DNA from: Lachnospiraceae bacterium
GTDB taxonomy: Bacteria; Bacillota; Clostridia; Lachnospirales; Lachnospiraceae
NCBI GenBank assembly: GCA_017550535.1
Contig: JAFZOS010000093.1
Span: 1 to 58,015, forward strand
Direction of reading: 5' to 3'
Length of the DNA: 58,015 nt
Of the stretch, positions 43,815-53,818 are shown piece after piece. Made by a program: the position numbers and the translations under genes. Under the pieces are notes generated by a model. It did not search any database and had not been told where the DNA came from. It was given only the letters and a program-made list of their open reading frames with translations. The number at the start of each line of letters is the position of its first letter. The stretch's first letter is position 1.

Positions 43815-43835
43815 ACCGCTTCGGCGGTTTTTTGT
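43813..43835 (+). terminator. Intrinsic terminator with UUCG tetraloop
   Basis: AACCGC, TTCG, GCGGTT and a T-run directly after the stop of the Sel1-like gene. It separates the ptsI-pgi operon from the c-di-GMP block. Confidence 0.93.
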
Positions 43836-43864
43836 GTATAAACAGGCTTATAAGGAGTGTGTGT

Positions 43865-46800
43865 ATGGATTTTAAAAAACTGGCTGACAGCATGACGGCG
43901 ATGACCTGTATCGTATCGGTCGAGAAGCTTCCTGACGGAAAGCGCGGGAAGTTCCGCATTGTTGCCGGGAATAAGGCTTATATCGATTCTATAGAGCATC
44001 CCGCTCCCGGCACGGAAATGCTTTCGGATAAGTTTGTTCCGGGTTCGGAGTATACCGACTATCTTACAAGGGATTTAAACTTTGAAGACTATTGCTACAA
44101 CGCAGCCGTCTTGAAAAAATGCCTGCACTCCTATGCGCATCCGGACAGGATGAATGTCTGGTTTAACATGATGTTCATTCCGCTTGATGCGGATACGGAT
44201 GATCTCTGTTACTGCATGTATTTGATGGAGATAAATTTCGAGGCAAGCTCGGAACGCTTATCGAGCATATCGGGCGAAACCGCTTCGGCGGTCCTTGATA
44301 CGTGTATCAAACTCAGGGGCACAAATGATTTTAAGGCAACCATGCAGGATGTGGTTGTCGGCATACGCGAACTTTGTGATGCTGAGCACTGCTGTGTTCT
44401 GGTACTTAATGATATCGACAGGACCTGCCATGTTTTGGGAGAATCATTCAGGGAAGGTTCCGCGATGCTTCCGATGGAAACATATCTCGACAGTGATTTT
44501 TATGATATAGCGGAATCGTGGACCGGCACCATAGCGGGAAGCAACTGCCTTATAGTAAAAAATGAGCAGGACATGGATGTCATTAAGGATCGCAATCCAA
44601 TATGGCATGCATCCCTTATGTCGGCAGGAGTAAATAATATCGTATTGTTCCCGTTAAAATCACGCAATCAGCTGCTCGGCTATATATGGTCGATAAACTA
44701 TGATGAGAAACTTGCGATCAAGATAAAGGATACACTTGAAGTTACCACGTTCATACTGGGATCGGAGCTCGGTAACTATATGCTTCTTGACAGGCTCCGT
44801 TTCATCGGCTCCAAGGACATGCTTACGGGAGTAATGAACCGTAATGAGATGAACAATTACGTTGACGAATTAAGTCACGGAAGCCGTGACGGTGCGTCTG
44901 TCGGTGTTGTATTTGCCGACCTTAACGGACTTAAGACGGTCAATGATCTTGACGGGCACAATGCGGGAGACCTTCTCCTTAAAAATGCAGCCAATGTCCT
45001 TAGGACGGTATTTGCGGAAAAGGAGATATTCAGGGCAGGCGGCGATGAATTTGCGATAATCGTTACCGGTGTGACAAAGGATGAACTCAATGAGCGGATA
45101 GACAGGGTAAGGGAAGCTAGCCAAAATTATGATAATCTGTCATTTGCGATCGGCGGCTGTGTTGAAGATAACGGCAGTAATGTCCGTATGGCCCTGCGGC
45201 GCGCCGATGAGAAAATGTATGAGGACAAACGAAAGTTTTATGAACAGTTCCCGGAGATGGCGGGGACAGATCGAAGGCGCAGGGGCATACCTCAGAACGT
45301 AAACGGTGATGATACGGCGAAGAAAGAACATGAGCGGACGATCTTCAGCGAGATGAATTATGATTTCCTGACAGGGCTTCCGAGCATGACATATTTCTTC
45401 AAGCTTGCGGAAAGCGGGCGTAACAGCATGCATGAACAGAATATTCCGTCCGCGCTCGTGTTCATTAACCTTAACGGGATGAAGTTCTTTAATAAAAAAT
45501 ACGGATTTGCCGAGGGCGACATTCTCATTAAGGAGTTTGCGAGGATAATATCAAAGCAGTTCGGTGACGAGTGCTGCAGCCGTTTCGGACAGGATCATTT
45601 TGCCGTTTTTACACAGGCGGAGGATATCGACCGTAAGCTTAAACGCATATTTAAGGAAATGAAGACCGCAAACGGAGGAAAAACACTTCCCGTAAGGGCA
45701 GGTATCTATCCCGATTCAATGGGCATAGTCGAAACATCCCTTGCGTGTGACAGGGCAAAATATGCCTGTGATGCGATCAGGGATGATCATAATTCTTACT
45801 TTAACTACTTTGATAAAGATATGCTCGCTCGCGAGCTTAACAGGCAGTATGTTGTCGATAATCTGGACCGTGCTATTTCGGAAGGCTGGATCGTCGCATT
45901 TTACCAGCCGATAGTGCGCGCTGTCGGGGGAAAGGTCTGCGACGAGGAGGCACTGGCAAGGTGGATCGATCCCGTAAAGGGAATGCTTTCTCCGGCTGAT
46001 TTTATCCCGATCCTTGAAGATACGAGGCTTATATACAAGGTCGATCTTCATATCGTGGATGTGATCATTGAGAGGATAAACAGGCAGAAAAAGTCGGGAC
46101 TTCCGATCGTCCCGATATCCATTAATCTTTCGAGGACGGATTTCGAATGCTGTGATATCGTTGAAGAGATATGCAACCGTTTCGATGCGGCAGGTGTATC
46201 AAGGGATCTGATAACCGTTGAGATAACGGAAAGCGTTATAGGTGAAAACCTTGATTTCATGAAGACCCAGATATCCCGTTTTCAGGAGCTTGGGTTCAAG
46301 GTATGGATGGATGATTTCGGAAGCGGATATTCTTCCCTTGATCTTCTTAAGGAGGTGCAGTTCGACCTTATCAAGTTTGATATGCGTTTTATGAGGCAGT
46401 TTGACAGCAGTCCCAAATCAAAGGTATTGCTCACCGAACTCATGCGCATGGCGATAAGCCTTAATACGGAAACTATCACCGAGGGCGTTGAGACTGAAGA
46501 GCAGGTTGCGTTCTTAAGAGAGATCGGATGCTCAAAGATGCAGGGATATTATTTCTGTAAACCCATTCCATATGAACAGATAATAGAAAGATATGAGAAA
46601 GGAATGCAGATAGGTTTTGAAAATCCAAAAGAAACGGAATACTTTAAGGCGATGGGCGCGATCAACCTTTATGACCTGGCTGCGGTATCCAATGAGGAGG
46701 GTGAATCTATAAAGCATTATTTCAATACGACTCCCATGGCGGTCATCGAATCTGACGGAGTTAACGTCATACCTTCAAGGGTGAATAAATCTTATCGCGA

Positions 46801-47827
46801 TTTTGTAAAGGATTATATTGAACACTCGGATGATAAAAAGATAAGCGCCTCGTTCCTTGAAGCGGTAAGGGAGTGCAAAAATGTCGGCCAGAAGGTATTC
46901 ATAAACGAAGAGCGGTCCGATGGTGTGACCATCAATGCTCTCATAAGAAAGATAGCGACAAATCCCGCAAGCGGTCTCGGGGCATATGCGGTCGCAGTGC
47001 TTAATGTAAATCGCAGCAGCGGCCGGGAACTGACATATACCGCCGTTGCCAAAGCACTGTCGACAGATTACATGTTCCTGTATCATGTTGATCTTGAGAC
47101 AGGGGATTTTACACAGTATTTCCCGGATCCGGAAAAGGCCGACGTTACCGTTGAGCGAAAAGGCAGGTCTTTCTTTGAACAGAGTCACAGAGATGCGCTT
47201 GTATATCTGCATGAAAATGACCGGGATCAGTTTATAAGTACATTTACAAAGGAGAATGTAATAAAAGCTCTTGACGAGCGAGGAGCATTTACCTTAACGT
47301 TCAGACAGCTGATAGACGGTGAGCCTAAGTATGTCAATCTGAAGGCCGTAAGGATGGATGATAAGCGCTATATAATAATAGGTGTCAACAATGTGGACTT
47401 ACAGCTCAGGCAGCAGGAAGCGTACGAACGCCTTGAAGCTGAGAACGTAACGTATTCCAGGATATCGGCTCTTATGGGCGATTTTATAGCCATATATACC
47501 GTTGATCCCGAAACGTTAAGTTATTTACAGTACAGCGCCTCAAATGAATATTCCGATATGGGCTCATCGACGGCAGGTCTTGACTTCTTCAAAAATTCAG
47601 TAAGAGAGGGGACACCCCTCCTTCATCCGGACGATGTAGACCGGTTCGTATCGGAGTTTACAAAAGAAAAAGTATTTGAAAAAGTTGAAAAAGGCGAAGT
47701 ATATATCTTAAATTACAGGCTTAAGCTTGGCACTGATTATACAAATATCAACCTAAGGGCGGGTCTTGTCAGGGAAAAGGACGGACCGAGGCTTATAGTA
47801 GGCGTCAGGCGTGCGGATATGATATAA
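43865..47827 (+). CDS. GGDEF-GGDEF(degenerate)-EAL protein with C-terminal PAS-like domains
   Basis: Cytoplasmic c-di-GMP protein of 1320 residues. The N-terminal region is PAS-like (1-140), then GAF-like (about 145-310). The first GGDEF is intact (ADLNGLKTVNDLDGH, RAGGDEF at about 390) with no RxxD inhibitory site. The second is degenerate (RFGQDHF at about 572). EAL (about 670-910) keeps EALARW, ISINLSR, VEITES, MDDFGSGYSS, TEGVE and MQGYYFCKP. Then comes a region of unknown type and two repeated PAS-like units (about 1050-1190 and 1200-1320: DYMFLYHVDLETGDFTQY versus DFIAIYTVDPETLSYLQY). It may both make and degrade c-di-GMP. ATG 43865 lies 7 nt after AAGGAG. Likely co-transcribed with the HD-GYP gene. 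Confidence 0.9.
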   Translation: MDFKKLADSMTAMTCIVSVEKLPDGKRGKFRIVAGNKAYIDSIEHPAPGTEMLSDKFVPGSEYTDYLTRDLNFEDYCYNAAVLKKCLHSYAHPDRMNVWFNMMFIPLDADTDDLCYCMYLMEINFEASSERLSSISGETASAVLDTCIKLRGTNDFKATMQDVVVGIRELCDAEHCCVLVLNDIDRTCHVLGESFREGSAMLPMETYLDSDFYDIAESWTGTIAGSNCLIVKNEQDMDVIKDRNPIWHASLMSAGVNNIVLFPLKSRNQLLGYIWSINYDEKLAIKIKDTLEVTTFILGSELGNYMLLDRLRFIGSKDMLTGVMNRNEMNNYVDELSHGSRDGASVGVVFADLNGLKTVNDLDGHNAGDLLLKNAANVLRTVFAEKEIFRAGGDEFAIIVTGVTKDELNERIDRVREASQNYDNLSFAIGGCVEDNGSNVRMALRRADEKMYEDKRKFYEQFPEMAGTDRRRRGIPQNVNGDDTAKKEHERTIFSEMNYDFLTGLPSMTYFFKLAESGRNSMHEQNIPSALVFINLNGMKFFNKKYGFAEGDILIKEFARIISKQFGDECCSRFGQDHFAVFTQAEDIDRKLKRIFKEMKTANGGKTLPVRAGIYPDSMGIVETSLACDRAKYACDAIRDDHNSYFNYFDKDMLARELNRQYVVDNLDRAISEGWIVAFYQPIVRAVGGKVCDEEALARWIDPVKGMLSPADFIPILEDTRLIYKVDLHIVDVIIERINRQKKSGLPIVPISINLSRTDFECCDIVEEICNRFDAAGVSRDLITVEITESVIGENLDFMKTQISRFQELGFKVWMDDFGSGYSSLDLLKEVQFDLIKFDMRFMRQFDSSPKSKVLLTELMRMAISLNTETITEGVETEEQVAFLREIGCSKMQGYYFCKPIPYEQIIERYEKGMQIGFENPKETEYFKAMGAINLYDLAAVSNEEGESIKHYFNTTPMAVIESDGVNVIPSRVNKSYRDFVKDYIEHSDDKKISASFLEAVRECKNVGQKVFINEERSDGVTINALIRKIATNPASGLGAYAVAVLNVNRSSGRELTYTAVAKALSTDYMFLYHVDLETGDFTQYFPDPEKADVTVERKGRSFFEQSHRDALVYLHENDRDQFISTFTKENVIKALDERGAFTLTFRQLIDGEPKYVNLKAVRMDDKRYIIIGVNNVDLQLRQQEAYERLEAENVTYSRISALMGDFIAIYTVDPETLSYLQYSASNEYSDMGSSTAGLDFFKNSVREGTPLLHPDDVDRFVSEFTKEKVFEKVEKGEVYILNYRLKLGTDYTNINLRAGLVREKDGPRLIVGVRRADMI

Positions 47828-47850: not shown

Positions 47851-50800
47851 ATGAAAGATTGGAAGCTTTGGAAGATAGTTCTGTTTATTATAACCTGTGT
47901 TTGCTTAAACGTTGGCTTGAAGCTCCTGGCCGTATGGCTTGAACTTCCGCTGTGGGCCGATTCGTTTGGGACGGCACTCTGCGCCTGTATCGGAGGCCCG
48001 GTCTGCGGTGTGATGGTAGCGATCACCGGCAACCTTGCATACTGTGTGGTCAACCATCTTTCCGCGGCTTATGCCATAACAAATGTTGCACTGGGTATTA
48101 TAGTGGGAATTGCGGCTCATAATAAGTGGTTCGATGAGTTTTTCGGTTTTATGAAGGCTGCAACATTGACGGTATTAGCTTCACTTATCATTTCCGTGCC
48201 GATAGATCTTATACTTGATAAGGGGTATACGGGAAATAAATGGGGGAACGGCGTTGTGGATTATTTTTTAAAAGCCGGATGGGCTCCTTTCCTGTGTACC
48301 GTAATGGGCCAGCTTGCCCTCGAGTTTGCCGATAAGGTGCTTACGATAGCACTGGTGTACCTGATCGTGATCTTAAGGCGTATGAAGCACAGCCATAATG
48401 ATGACAGATCCATACGAAGCGGCAGTAATGTGTCTGCCGTTATCATACTGTTTTTGACTCTCGGAGCTTCTCTGTTTATGCCTGCAAGGGTAAATGCCGC
48501 AACAGCGGTCGAAACGCCTGATTATAACGATTATGTCCAAAGTGTTTACAGCAGCAGCAACGGCCTGCCCTGCGGCGAGGCAAATGATATCGCGCAGACC
48601 AGCGACGGTGTTCTGTGGATAGGAACCTATGCGGGTCTTTATCGCTACAACGGGCGCGAGTTCCGCTGGGTGGATGAATATGAATCGGTTAAAAACGTAA
48701 ACTGCCTTTATGTGGATGAGGAAGGCAGGCTGTGGATCGGTACCAATGACAACGGTCTGTCCATCGTGATCCGCGAAAAGGTCGTAAATGTACTCGACCA
48801 GTCAAGCGGTCTTCCTTCGAATTCGGTGCGATGCATTCTCCGCGCGTCGGACGGGTATTATTATGTCGGTACAACCGACAGCCTGCAGGTGCTTGAGATG
48901 AACAACGGCCTGAAGGCAGTCAATACCCTGGATGAAGTCAACTATGCAGTGGGCATCACTGCGGATGAGGCCGGACACGTGGCGGCCATTTCCTCGGACG
49001 GGCGGCTTTTCCTGATGAATAAGGGTAATATCCAATGCTCACTCAAACTGCCGGAAGAGCAGGAAGTGTTTAACTGCTGTGCTTTTTCGCCTGCAGGAAC
49101 ATTGATGGTGGGTACTTCAACAAATCATATCTACTGTTATGATGTTTCCGGTGACGATTTTAAAGAGACCAAAGTAATAACGTGTGAGGATGTAAACTGC
49201 ATCAATAACCTTAACTATATAAGCGACGGTACACTGTTCATCTCTACGGACAGCGGTATTTCCTATATAGACGGCCGCGGTTATCATCGGATGAATACTA
49301 ATGAGTTTAACAATTCGATCGATAATATGCTTTATGACTATCAGGGGAACCTTTGGTTCACCTCATCAAGGCTGGGCCTCTTAAGGCTGGCAAAATCGCC
49401 GTTCAAGGATGTTTACGGTGCTGTGGGCATGGAACGCAGGGTCGTAAATGCAATTGTCTCGTGGAAGGACAGCTATTACATCGGAACGGACACGGGACTT
49501 GATGTGGTGGATAAGGCATGCCGGAACAGGCTTGATAATGACCTGACCCGGGAACTTGCCGGCAAGCGCATCCGCTGTATGTACGTGGACAGTAATGATC
49601 ATTTATGGGTGTGCACCTACGGAAGCGGTCTTATGGAGTATACAAAAGACGGTGAATCCTGGGCGTACAATGCCGATAACGGCAGTTTCGGAAACCGCGC
49701 GCGTATCGTAACGGGGCTTTCGGACGGGACTATACTGGCAGCCGGTGATACGGGGATAAGCTATATAAAGGATCATAAGGTCTTACGCACTATCGGTAAT
49801 GAGAACGGCCTTATCAATTCAATGATCCTTACAGCGACAGAGCTTAGTGACGGTACGATCTTAGCAGGAACGGACGGCGATGGAATGGCCGTCATCAAAG
49901 ACGGAAAAGTGACAAAAATGCTTACACGTGAGGACGGGCTTTCAAGCGGTGTCATTCTTCGAACCGTCAAGGATACCAAGTCCGAGGGTGTGTTCATAGT
50001 TACAAGCAACAGCCTGTGTTATCTTGACACGGATGGTCAGATCCGTGTATTTGATAAATTCCCGTATTTTAATAACTATGATATCTGGGTTAAGGATGAG
50101 GATACGCTTTTTGTCATGTCCAGTGCGGGAATTTACGTCGTGGAACGCGATGAGCTGGTTGATGGCGGTGATTTTTCCTGGGAGCTGCTGGATGCAAGGC
50201 GGGGCCTCGGTACTTCACTGACCGCCAATTCCTGGAACTATTTTAACGGCAGCAATGAATTGTTCCTTCCGTGTGACACGGGAGTTTATATCATAGATGT
50301 TGACAAATATAATACCGATGTCCGTTCATACAGGATGCAGCTGGCTTCGGTCAGGCTGGACGGAGTGCTTCAGCCTCCCGTGCGTACGGGCGCGGTTACT
50401 ATAAACCAGGGTGTGAGCCGTGTCGAGTTAAGCCCCGAGATCCTTAATTATACGATTCAGGAGCCTAATGTAGGTTATTTTCTTGAGGGCTATGATACAC
50501 AGTGGACGATCGTTCCGCAGAATAACCTTAACAACATAATATACGGAAATCTGCCCGCAGGTAATTATGTCTTCCATCTGGCCATTTTGGACAGCGCCGG
50601 AGAGCATGTGCTCGAGGAGCGTAAGTTTGAGATCGTAAAAGAGGGTGAACTGTATGAGCAGAAAAGCTTTACAATATATCTGCTTGTGCTGCTTGCCCTG
50701 CTCATCATCTGGTTTACCTGGTTTGTTGTACAGCGGCAGCTTCATCAGCAGCAGATAAAGCTTAATATGGCAAATGAAACGGTAAAGGCTATAGCAAATG

Positions 50801-51504
50801 CCGTCGATGCCAAGGACGTGCGTACCAACGAGCATTCCCAGCGTGTTGCGGATTACTCTGTGCTTATCGCGCAGGAAATGAATTGTTACAAATGGTGGCA
50901 GCGCCGTAAATTCTTATCAAGCCTGCGGGGAGCCGCACAGATGCATGATATAGGCAAGATCGGCATTCGGGACAGTGTGCTTAATAAGGTAGGGCGGCTT
51001 GATGATGACGAATACGCTGAAATGAGGTCCCATGTTGAAAGGGGAGCAGATATCCTTAAGGATTTCACGCTGGTTGAGCATGTTGAGGAGGGAACCCGCT
51101 ATCATCATGAGCGATATGACGGAAAAGGATATCCTGACGGCCTTAAGGGTGATGAGATACCTCTTTTTGCAAGGATCATAGGCGTTGCCGATGCGTTTGA
51201 TGCCATGACGAGCAATCGTGTATACCGCAGTTCAATGGATACCGATTACGTCATGAATGAAATGAAGCGTGGGCGGGGTACCCAGTTTGATCCGGTTGTA
51301 CTTGACGCATTCCTTCGTCTTGTCGAAAAAGGCGTGATCAATGTTGATGCTCTCTACTCACAGAGAAGTGCCGAGATACAGCAGGCTGATAAAGATGCTC
51401 AGGAAGAACTTAAGCGCCGCGTTGAAGAGGATAAAAAGATCCAGGAGGCCGAGATGGATAAGGATAAGGCTGAGGAAACCGGTGAGAAAGGAGCCGAAGG
51501 ATGA
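47851..51504 (+). CDS. ECF-S-like membrane domain + two-component-type propeller + HD-GYP receptor
   Basis: Receptor of 1217 residues. Residues 1-180 form about six membrane helices resembling the substrate-binding S component of ECF vitamin transporters (LWADSFGTALCACIGGPVCG). A further membrane segment near 195-210 precedes a long extracellular beta propeller built of Reg_prop repeats (DGVLWIGTYAGLYRYNG, GRLWIGTNDNGL, HLWVCTYGSGL and others, about 12-14), then a Y_Y_Y domain (about 850-930, GYDTQWT), a membrane helix (about 941-965) and a cytoplasmic HD-GYP domain. HD-GYP residues are complete: NEHSQRV, HDIGKIG (about 1031), HHERYDGKGYPDG and ADAFDAMTSNR, so c-di-GMP hydrolysis is likely. 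The tail is highly charged. The stop overlaps the BMP gene by 4 nt. Confidence 0.88.
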   Translation: MKDWKLWKIVLFIITCVCLNVGLKLLAVWLELPLWADSFGTALCACIGGPVCGVMVAITGNLAYCVVNHLSAAYAITNVALGIIVGIAAHNKWFDEFFGFMKAATLTVLASLIISVPIDLILDKGYTGNKWGNGVVDYFLKAGWAPFLCTVMGQLALEFADKVLTIALVYLIVILRRMKHSHNDDRSIRSGSNVSAVIILFLTLGASLFMPARVNAATAVETPDYNDYVQSVYSSSNGLPCGEANDIAQTSDGVLWIGTYAGLYRYNGREFRWVDEYESVKNVNCLYVDEEGRLWIGTNDNGLSIVIREKVVNVLDQSSGLPSNSVRCILRASDGYYYVGTTDSLQVLEMNNGLKAVNTLDEVNYAVGITADEAGHVAAISSDGRLFLMNKGNIQCSLKLPEEQEVFNCCAFSPAGTLMVGTSTNHIYCYDVSGDDFKETKVITCEDVNCINNLNYISDGTLFISTDSGISYIDGRGYHRMNTNEFNNSIDNMLYDYQGNLWFTSSRLGLLRLAKSPFKDVYGAVGMERRVVNAIVSWKDSYYIGTDTGLDVVDKACRNRLDNDLTRELAGKRIRCMYVDSNDHLWVCTYGSGLMEYTKDGESWAYNADNGSFGNRARIVTGLSDGTILAAGDTGISYIKDHKVLRTIGNENGLINSMILTATELSDGTILAGTDGDGMAVIKDGKVTKMLTREDGLSSGVILRTVKDTKSEGVFIVTSNSLCYLDTDGQIRVFDKFPYFNNYDIWVKDEDTLFVMSSAGIYVVERDELVDGGDFSWELLDARRGLGTSLTANSWNYFNGSNELFLPCDTGVYIIDVDKYNTDVRSYRMQLASVRLDGVLQPPVRTGAVTINQGVSRVELSPEILNYTIQEPNVGYFLEGYDTQWTIVPQNNLNNIIYGNLPAGNYVFHLAILDSAGEHVLEERKFEIVKEGELYEQKSFTIYLLVLLALLIIWFTWFVVQRQLHQQQIKLNMANETVKAIANAVDAKDVRTNEHSQRVADYSVLIAQEMNCYKWWQRRKFLSSLRGAAQMHDIGKIGIRDSVLNKVGRLDDDEYAEMRSHVERGADILKDFTLVEHVEEGTRYHHERYDGKGYPDGLKGDEIPLFARIIGVADAFDAMTSNRVYRSSMDTDYVMNEMKRGRGTQFDPVVLDAFLRLVEKGVINVDALYSQRSAEIQQADKDAQEELKRRVEEDKKIQEAEMDKDKAEETGEKGAEG

Positions 51505-52694
51505 AGCGGATATATATAACAACTGCATTGACCTGTCTGGTCATCATGGCTGCTTTCATAGGTATTTTCAGGGTTTTGAACATTAACGGCGGGAAGGATC
51601 ATTTGAAAGTAGGATTTATATACGATAATGATGAGAGTACTCCATATACGTATAACTTTTCACTTGCCAAAGACGCGGTTGAGAAGAAATACGGTGACAG
51701 GGTTGAAATATTAACGTGCAGCAACGTGCTGGATGAAGAGATGGAAGAACCGCTGCGTGAACTGGCGGGGGAAGGCTGTGACATCATATTCTTCAACGGT
51801 TACAGTGAGCTTGTAAGGGAACTTGCTCCGGAATATCCGAATATCCAGTTTTGCCAGACATCCTATATGGACATGAGTGATCAGACGGTACCCGAAAATT
51901 ATCATACATTTAAGGGTGAGGCATATCAGGGAAGATATTTGAGCGGTATCGTGGCAGGTATGAAGATACAGCAGATGATCGATGAGGGTTTGATAACCGA
52001 GGATCAGGCAATAGTCGGGTTTGTTGCGGCGTTTCCCACTTCGGAAGTCATTTCGGGCTACACCGCATTCCTTCTCGGCGTCCGTAACGTGGTACCGGAG
52101 GCCGTAATGCGCGTATGTTATACGCACACATGGAGCAGTTATGCCGAGGAACGGAGCGCGGCAGGTAAGCTTTTAAACGACGGTTGTGTGATCATTTCCC
52201 AGTATACGGATACAATAGGTCCGGCTATAGCCTGTGAAGAGGAAGCCGAGAGCCGTCCCGTATATTTCGTCGGATGGAATCAGAGCATGTCGGAGGTTGC
52301 TCCCGTGTCTTCGCTTGTTACATCAAGGGTATGTTGGGAACCCTATGTGCTCGCAGCTGTGGATGCGGTCATGACAGACAGGAAGATAGAAAAGGTTGTT
52401 TCCGGTCATATCCACGGAAATGATGTATCTGCCGGATTTGAGAAGGGTTGGATAGAACTTGATGATCTTAACCTGCGAAATGCCGCCCCGGGGACCCAGG
52501 AAGCCATAAACAGCGCCATAGAACAGTTTAAGCGCGGGAAGATCGATTTTGTGTTCAAATGCGGTTATATCGGTGTAAATCCGGATGATTCTTCGGATAT
52601 AATCGATCTGCATGCAGGATATATCGAAAACGAAAACACGTCATATCCAACATATCATTATGTCCTTTTGGACATCATTACCATCGTGGAGTAA
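51501..52694 (+). CDS. BMP-family (nucleoside-type) binding protein, membrane anchored
   Basis: Extracellular ligand-binding protein of 397 residues in the BMP/Med family, whose characterised members bind purine nucleosides. Core features are HLKVGFIYDNDESTPYTYNF, FNGYSELV, FKGEAYQGRYLSGIVAGM and FVAAFPTSEVISGYTAFLLG. The N-terminus is a hydrophobic anchor (ALTCLVIMAAFIGIFRVL) without a proper lipobox. There are no ABC permease or ATPase genes nearby, so it is probably a sensor rather than a transporter part. It is coupled to the HD-GYP receptor by an ATGA overlap. Confidence 0.85.
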   Translation: MKRIYITTALTCLVIMAAFIGIFRVLNINGGKDHLKVGFIYDNDESTPYTYNFSLAKDAVEKKYGDRVEILTCSNVLDEEMEEPLRELAGEGCDIIFFNGYSELVRELAPEYPNIQFCQTSYMDMSDQTVPENYHTFKGEAYQGRYLSGIVAGMKIQQMIDEGLITEDQAIVGFVAAFPTSEVISGYTAFLLGVRNVVPEAVMRVCYTHTWSSYAEERSAAGKLLNDGCVIISQYTDTIGPAIACEEEAESRPVYFVGWNQSMSEVAPVSSLVTSRVCWEPYVLAAVDAVMTDRKIEKVVSGHIHGNDVSAGFEKGWIELDDLNLRNAAPGTQEAINSAIEQFKRGKIDFVFKCGYIGVNPDDSSDIIDLHAGYIENENTSYPTYHYVLLDIITIVE

Positions 52695-52696
52695 AC

Positions 52697-53818
52697 ATGG
52701 GAAAGAAAGTCATTGTTGCAGGGCATGTCTGCCTTGATATAACTCCGGCTTTTCCGGAAACGGGAAAAAGGATGATATCGGAAATCTTAAAGCCCGGGAA
52801 GCTTATTGAAACAAAGGGTGTATCCGTGTCTGCCGGAGGGGCGGTTGCGAATACCGGACTTGCCATGAAGTTTTTCGGCGCCGATGTAAGGCTTATGGGC
52901 AAGGTCGGATGCGATGAGTTCGGTGAAATGATATGCAACATCCTGAAAAAGCATGGCGCGGATGAGTATATGATACATGCGGGGAATGAGACGTCATCAT
53001 ATTCCGTTGTTATCGCGGTGCCGGGAATTGACAGGATCTTCCTTCATTGTCCCGGAACCAATAATACATTTAAGGCATCGGACATTCCGGATGACATTCT
53101 TAAGGATACTGTTCTTTTCCACTTCGGCTACCCATCCCTGATGAGAGAAATGTATACAGATAACGGGGAGGAACTCGTAAGGCTGTTTAAGAAAGTAAAG
53201 GAGTCAGGATGCGCAACATCCCTTGATCTTGCGGCTGTAGATCCGAATTCGGAAGCGGGCAGGACAGACTGGAAAGTGATCCTTAAAAAGATCCTGCCAT
53301 ATACGGATTTCTTTGTTCCGAGTATAGAGGAACTGTGCTTTATGATAGACAGGGGCAGGTTTGAAAGCTGGCAGGAAAGGGCAAAGGGCGGAGACATCAC
53401 GGAGGTGCTTGATCCCGAAAAAGATATAAGTCCCCTTGCGGATATGTGCATGGATTTAGGATGCGGGGTGCTTCTTTTAAAATGCGGTGCTCCCGGGATG
53501 TATTACAGAACAGGAAATGCCGACAGGCTTAAAGGACTGCCCGGAAAACTTGGGCTTGATACAGAAGCATGGTCGGATAAAGTGGGCTTTGAAAGGTCAT
53601 ATAAACCGGATGCGGTGCTTTCGGGAACAGGAGCAGGTGATACAAGTATCGCAGCCTTCCTGACAGCAATGCTTGAGGGCGGCAGACCGGAGGAATGCAT
53701 AAAGCTTGCCGCGGCAGCAGGCGCATGCTGTGTGTCTGCTTATGATGCCCTGTCGGGACTTAAGCCCTTAAATGAACTGAGGGAAAAGATCGGCGCAGGA
53801 TGGGAAAAAACCGCTTAA
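52697..53818 (+). CDS. PfkB-family sugar/nucleoside kinase
   Basis: Ribokinase-fold kinase of 373 residues. The N-terminal signature region reads SAGGAVANTGLAMKFFGADV, and the C-terminal PfkB signature has the catalytic aspartate in SGTGAGDTSIAAFL. The substrate cannot be told from sequence. Two nt after the BMP gene stop, it is probably in the same operon, which makes ribose or a nucleoside a reasonable guess. A regulatory insert (about 215-245) is unusual for ribokinases. Confidence 0.85.
   Translation: MGKKVIVAGHVCLDITPAFPETGKRMISEILKPGKLIETKGVSVSAGGAVANTGLAMKFFGADVRLMGKVGCDEFGEMICNILKKHGADEYMIHAGNETSSYSVVIAVPGIDRIFLHCPGTNNTFKASDIPDDILKDTVLFHFGYPSLMREMYTDNGEELVRLFKKVKESGCATSLDLAAVDPNSEAGRTDWKVILKKILPYTDFFVPSIEELCFMIDRGRFESWQERAKGGDITEVLDPEKDISPLADMCMDLGCGVLLLKCGAPGMYYRTGNADRLKGLPGKLGLDTEAWSDKVGFERSYKPDAVLSGTGAGDTSIAAFLTAMLEGGRPEECIKLAAAAGACCVSAYDALSGLKPLNELREKIGAGWEKTA

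Follow-up and report, generated by a model that had tools for sequence, protein, structure and literature searches.

A conserved Lachnospiraceae receptor joining an S-component-like domain, propellers and HD-GYP, with a possible purine ligand

What does a bacterium sense with a receptor that couples a transporter-like membrane domain to an extracytoplasmic propeller and a cyclic-dinucleotide phosphodiesterase? The question is raised by a gene on contig JAFZOS010000093.1 of Lachnospiraceae bacterium (assembly GCA_017550535.1, genome of 2.74 Mb in 103 contigs), analyzed here as a window of 58,015 nucleotides whose contig positions are used throughout. The encoded protein starts with a domain resembling the S-components of energy-coupling factor (ECF) transporters (S-domain), continues through transmembrane segment TM7 into an ectodomain, and crosses the membrane again at TM8 before its HD-GYP output:

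47851..51504, + strand: receptor coding sequence, type A, 1217 amino acids (aa); open reading frame (ORF) call, Pfam and 78 other distinct full-length sequences
47863..48387, + strand: membrane domain of S-component fold, residues about 5-179; predicted fold and sequence
48427..48498, + strand: TM7 or putative internal signal peptide, residues 193-216, with a possible cut after A216 (VNA|A); [AV]xA motif pattern
48535..50394, + strand: extracytoplasmic Reg_prop region, two probable 7-bladed propellers, residues about 229-848; Reg_prop (Pfam), blade motifs and solved relatives 4a2l, 3v9f and 3ott
50476..50634, + strand: Y_Y_Y domain, residues 876-928; Pfam E 2e-07, whole-genome search
50668..50730, + strand: TM8, residues about 940-960; hydrophobic stretch, with residues 940-968 conserved at 0.78
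50788..51300, + strand: HD-GYP phosphodiesterase domain, residues 980-1150, catalytic residues complete; HD_5 E 3.2e-34 and solved relatives 5z7c and 4mcw

The receptor is real, conserved and functional-looking, and we are highly confident that it is a genuine multidomain receptor for cyclic-dinucleotide signaling. Its ORF is intact by ORF and Pfam analysis, and 132 BLAST rows for it include 79 of full length, 78 of them distinct, the remaining 53 being fragments or other proteins; counts of type-A orthologs out of 79 refer to the window receptor plus these 78. Mean conservation is highest in HD-GYP (0.90) and the propellers (0.86), followed by TM8 (0.78), the S-domain (0.77), TM7 (0.44) and the linker before TM7 (0.29). 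The best 80 of 222 named relatives are mostly from Lachnospiraceae, Clostridia or Butyrivibrio, many of them rumen-derived. A second copy, on contig C46 of the same genome, is 69% identical in the S-domain, 82% in the ectodomain and 79% in HD-GYP, with only 22% identity in the TM7 region. A plasmid search matched 612 records, none covering 80% of the query in one place.

This composition agrees with the first-pass annotation, which had read from the DNA an ECF-S-like N-terminus, a double propeller with Y_Y_Y and an intact HD-GYP, in an order it knew from no described system. Reg_prop matches, blade motifs and the Y_Y_Y match bear out the ectodomain, and the order was not found in the literature searched, which covered few subscription papers or bioRxiv preprints. 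At the output end, the HD and GYP motifs with their metal-binding His/Asp set are complete, and 12 positions are invariant in 79/79 sequences. The closest solved HD-GYP protein is 5z7c by whole-sequence E (1.8e-40) and 4mcw by best single stretch (116.8 vs 105.2 bits). The former is specific for cyclic GMP-AMP (cGAMP), and the substrate here may be cyclic di-GMP (c-di-GMP) or 3'3'-cGAMP. Arg991 is found in all 79 sequences where 4mcw carries a Glu, which we take to be a third-metal ligand; Arg in place of this Glu suggests a two-metal site.

The first-pass reading would fall if the N-terminal domain proved to be a generic membrane anchor, which its predicted structure does not bear out. The model has the six-helix S-component fold, and the top fold rows include RibU and ThiT, at identities of only 6-15% in the top 20 rows. 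A sequence search of solved structures found nothing (one unrelated row, E 1.6), so the fold rests on prediction. The domain resembles CD3073-family ECF S-components (NF045596) over its whole length and shares their predicted fold, but differs from them in scoring 59.4 and 64.1 bits against a cut-off of 180, in being fused to a receptor, and in having no EcfT beside it. The curated cut-off is exceeded in only 4/295 genomes of the order; matches to the family at E<=0.001 occur in 90/295 genomes of the order and at E<=1e-8 in 38/398 genomes of the phylum. Small residues mark the helix 1 region (C16 in 78/79, C18 in 54/79), the placement of the AXXXA motif for EcfT docking in the CD3073-type family being unsure. 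The linker 176-193 contains five K+R, consistent with a location inside. Matches to EcfT (CbiQ) lie on contigs C50 and C73 only and not on window contig C12, leaving no ECF module beside the receptor; by eye, the EcfA-EcfA-EcfT set next to ribosomal genes on C50 looks like a shared ECF module.

To what ligand might such a domain respond? Its stand-alone relatives offer a clue. Our survey of fused forms comprises 53 loci, 24 with stand-alone S genes (mostly the best-scoring ones) and 29 with receptors. At 17/24 stand-alone loci, a nucleoside hydrolase or phosphorylase homologue is encoded on the same strand, within 700 bases at 13 and at 1.7-4.3 kb in the rest, making a purine-type ligand likely; Pfam recognizes IU_nuc_hydro in L108 and L112 and IU_nuc_hydro or PNP_UDP_1 in eight further neighbors scanned. 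Six stand-alone CD3073-type genes (L165, L177, L180, L182, L183 and L184) lie within 20 bases of nucleoside hydrolase genes or overlap them, with no EcfT in the locus, and the linkage suggests nucleosides as a tentative substrate of this ECF family, for which the NCBIfam name indicates no substrate. At L172:3866-5923, upstream of a CD3073-type ECF operon, a 685-aa ORF places a nucleoside hydrolase behind a uroporphyrinogen-decarboxylase-like domain.

A second line of evidence comes from the gene directly downstream:

51501..52694, + strand: 397-aa BMP/PnrA-like binding protein whose hydrophobic N-terminal stretch looks by eye like a membrane anchor; Pfam Bmp

Its product passes the Pfam Bmp cut-off (E 3.9e-24, 85.6 vs 24.1 bits), and its start overlaps the receptor gene end by 4 bases (ATGA). 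A BMP gene directly follows the receptor gene in 75/75 testable orthologs (of 78), with the same 4-base overlap in 66. At cut-offs set after viewing the match lists (E<=7.2e-57 for the S-domain, E<=2.0e-183 for BMP), the strong matches to the two coincide in the same 23/61 genomes. Among type-A loci of other genera, four have the BMP neighbor (L146, L148, L150 and L153) and two are cut off by a contig end (L149 and L151). Among solved structures, the BMP protein comes closest to AtzT (E 6.6e-24) and 3s99 (E 6.1e-23). According to the accessible text of PMC6834077, AtzT holds guanine (dissociation constant 110 nM) between Tyr45 and Trp194, with Glu165, Ser97, Asn218 and Asn220, and 3s99 contains adenine. 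Mapping by eye on the alignment with the solved relatives places Tyr45, Glu165 and Trp194 at BMP residues Y51 (75/76), E182 (76/76) and W211 (76/76), and Asn220 at D237, which is Asp in 76/76 and likewise in 3s99. The counts come from a BMP set for which 75 of 83 rows were kept. The window BMP thus shares the family, the Tyr-Trp sandwich and the Glu with AtzT and 3s99, and its partly conserved pocket may well bind purines; unlike theirs, its gene is tied to a receptor gene, and no ABC importer gene was found among the neighbors scanned with Pfam. Seven genomes (G019, G034, G037, G043, G049, G057 and G059) also have distant BMP matches within ORFs of 641-691 aa, a length that exceeds that of a binding protein.

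Because it is encoded nearly always beside a likely purine-binding protein, the receptor probably tells the cell about purines outside. We consider a purine base or nucleoside a fairly likely ligand, and the gene context thereby points away from the vitamin or polymer first proposed. The first-pass annotation had also overlooked the conserved BMP gene, the resemblance of the S-domain-propeller junction to a signal peptide and the published use of S-component folds as receptors. Two rival ligands need weighing. If BMP and the S-domain were binders of B6- or riboflavin-type vitamins, the weak BMP match to NCBIfam ABC_BMP_B6 (E 8.5e-4, 18.6 bits, cut-off 400) and the presence of RibU and ThiT among the fold rows would fit; those rows are nevertheless distant in sequence, S-components vary in ligand, the sequence relatives adjoin nucleoside enzymes and the best solved BMP relatives hold purines, which leaves a vitamin very improbable. 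The propeller raises a different possibility. Bacteroides hybrid two-component sensors read carbohydrates through this part, and the propeller best matches the hybrid-sensor proteins 4a2l and 3v9f among solved structures, so the receptor might read a glycan or other carbohydrate there, with BMP and the S-domain tuning the response. A PfkB sugar kinase gene follows the BMP gene at 52697, and the second receptor copy likewise has a PfkB-like piece downstream, at a distance of 4.9 kb (L103:13722). Within 4 kb downstream, however, PfkB is found in 0/78 orthologs, against BMP in all testable ones (other carbohydrate genes were not searched for), and we regard a glycan ligand as improbable.

Our favored explanation, which we hold to be somewhat better than even, is a "transceptor"-type receptor that senses a purine, either nucleoside or nucleobase, and thereby controls a cyclic dinucleotide. 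The S-domain, with its predicted CD3073-type fold, would keep an outward-facing ligand pocket. The co-encoded BMP would bind purine outside and dock on the propeller/Y_Y_Y ectodomain or on the S-domain, and the ectodomain would move TM8, switching the cytoplasmic HD-GYP phosphodiesterase on or off.

In a tree of 65 S-domains, the propeller-type receptors group together (98/95) and have as neighbors six transporters (90/72), which carry a TGNxW(G/V)D motif and have an adjacent phosphorylase at 3/6 loci; the Cache-type receptors cluster separately (98/93), beyond a 91/89 branch. A single origin of all S-domain receptors receives a p-AU of 0.0504 and narrowly escapes rejection; we favor two recruitments from transporters into receptors, bearing in mind that long branches in this tree carry a risk of artifacts. 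Of 45 positions conserved in at least 95% of type A, divergent type-A proteins keep a mean share of 0.68 and the six sister transporters 0.65; the other transporters (0.45), the receiver forms (0.41) and type B (0.37) keep fewer. The positions W35, S115, P117, N129 and W131 are shared with the sister group in 6/6.

The fused forms themselves are varied. Besides type A (S-propeller-Y_Y_Y-HD-GYP), we found four proteins with a propeller and a receiver (L106, L107, L152 and L155), type B (S-Cache-like-HD-GYP, about 720 aa), short forms of 564-598 aa, and a single receiver-bearing protein of 1048 aa (L154); the label "Cache-like" is our own, for a part in which Pfam names no domain. Among the 398 phylum genomes, CD3073-type ORFs longer than 550 aa occur in four genomes of the window's family and one other, where the domain (G674:C1:2300208-2300723) lies within a 596-aa ORF. 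Type B, a second large receptor family, is exemplified by L104:2780-4945, L105:4313-6469, L109:5057-7210, L110:2768-5023 and others, and three ORFs of 710-726 aa in the window's own genome, two of which were read, match the CD3073-type S-domain.

The junction between S-domain and propeller holds a further feature. The TM7 segment shows [AV]xA in 71/79 type-A receptors, compared with 0/79 for the TM8 control, under a rule of our own that asks for small residues at -3 and -1 after the hydrophobic h-region. By this rule the segment has the form expected of a signal peptidase I site: basic residues, a hydrophobic core often with Pro (position 211 in 57/79), then [AV]xA. The motif is also present in 4/4 propeller-receiver receptors and in 7/9 type-A proteins from the wider set, where L103, L110 and L148 duplicate members of the 79, and in 3/18 Cache-like receptors, short forms and L154 included. 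Because the segment resembles an internal signal peptide, the chain may be cut in two there by signal peptidase I, a prospect that, from the motif, we rate as evenly balanced. The simplest history is that a propeller receptor gained an S gene in front of its signal peptide by fusion and retained the cut site; probable cleavage by signal peptidase I would then yield a 1:1 complex.

The same junction opens the possibility that the S-domain serves just as an inherited anchor in the membrane or as a leader for export, leaving the propeller/Y_Y_Y ectodomain, with BMP, as the sole sensor. TM7 is poorly conserved and signal-peptide-like, so the S-domain may be cut off, and four related propeller receptors without an S-domain (L105, L114, L157 and L161) start signal-peptide-like by eye. 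A mere leader would drift, though, whereas 23 positions of residues 1-178, besides the start Met, are invariant in 77 sequences, several of them common to real transporters, and two S-domain clades are retained in different receptor types. We therefore judge the anchor or leader reading unlikely. A bolder scheme treats the gene as a polyprotein: the cut would release a free S-component and a propeller-HD-GYP receptor at 1:1, and the freed S-component would topple, borrow the cell's shared ECF module and import BMP-delivered purine, while the receptor would read its loaded or docked state, so that uptake sets the cyclic-dinucleotide level. We find this quite unlikely.

Several observations weigh against a purine transceptor. 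The nucleoside enzymes are found at 0/29 receptor loci, and the ligand assigned to the receptor is therefore transferred from its homologues; they are absent from 7/24 transporter loci too, and the loci are mutually non-independent. The sister relation of type-A S-domains to the transporter group is supported by only 90/72. No BMP neighbor occurs at the divergent type-A locus L147 or at the four propeller-receiver loci, the Ser97/Phe98 loop of AtzT is unmatched in the BMP alignment, and the window BMP has Y235 where 74/76 have His. In the S-domain, loop 123-145, outside in the proposed topology, contains three K+R, so the positive-inside pattern is not clean. At the junction, 8/79 sequences fail the self-made [AV]xA rule.

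Parts of this design are already known, namely S-fold receptors and propeller receptors with GGDEF; what appears to be new is the domain order S-domain, propeller, Y_Y_Y, HD-GYP. The accessible text of PMC11109136 describes the S-component fold in 5TMR-LYT histidine kinases, termed "transceptors", and lists GGDEF and EAL outputs; its main text does not contain the terms "HD-GYP" or "propeller". Like these proteins, the window receptor uses the fold for sensing, but it is CD3073-like by sequence (11.6 bits to 5TMR-LYT, PF07694, under the Pfam cut-off of 24.6), continues into an extracytoplasmic propeller and HD-GYP, and shows no extra N-terminal helix H0. The first helix of the model spans 6-30, where solved S-components begin, and aligned ranges with them start at model residues 1-7 in the top 20 rows. 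With hybrid two-component sensors (4a2l, 3v9f and 3ott) it shares Reg_prop propellers followed by a transmembrane segment and the Y_Y_Y of the classical ones, yet it has an HD-GYP output and an S-domain in front, and no histidine kinase or receiver is among its Pfam matches at E<=1. Xanthomonas GdpX2 and GdpX3 tie the same ectodomain type to c-di-GMP turnover, combining Reg_prop and Y_Y_Y with GGDEF (an output taken from the GdpX naming), and the available part of PMC6637768 describes no S-domain or BMP partner for them. In the accessible parts of PMC8967002 and PMC5646818, NspS-MbaA of Vibrio cholerae pairs a separate periplasmic binding protein with a membrane c-di-GMP receptor. It resembles our receptor and BMP in working and differs in its polyamine ligand. 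MbaA has a GGDEF-EAL output, and the folds of the system are other than those of the window receptor.

By sequence, the S-domain described here connects receptors to true ECF S-components, whereas the published transceptor case rests on fold. Together, the transporter relatives and the partner protein suggest a specific candidate ligand, purines, which makes the idea of a transporter fold turned sensor testable by a binding assay. If true, extracellular purine sensing would be added to cyclic-dinucleotide control in rumen Lachnospiraceae. Moreover, the conserved signal-peptide-like junction raises the separate question of whether receptor complexes in bacteria can be produced by cutting a polyprotein.

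Upstream of the receptor, the neighborhood holds one more signaling gene:

43832..47827, + strand: GGDEF-EAL protein, separated by 23 bases from the receptor gene, with a GAF match below the cut-off; Pfam

This gene is a possible operon mate in the window. A conserved operon with it was rejected, as our seeds detect GGDEF/EAL neighbors in 5/78 orthologs only (E<=1e-20; some flanks short), and a conserved PfkB partner was rejected at the same threshold. The GGDEF-EAL protein has two GGDEF stretches, the second degenerate by eye. Elsewhere, similar parts are arranged differently. At L105:623-6469 and L161:5331-11747, the parts look as though they were divided between two genes: immediately after an S-Cache-HD-GYP gene comes one for a distinct propeller protein that has a receiver and a signal-peptide-like start of its own; the protein at L105:623-4294, in the window's own genome, is a propeller hybrid kinase with HisKA, HATPase and receiver. 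At L106:1594-8649 and L107:2192-9280, overlapping genes with EAL-like and HD-GYP domains precede the S-propeller-receiver gene, the enzymes there being separate proteins.

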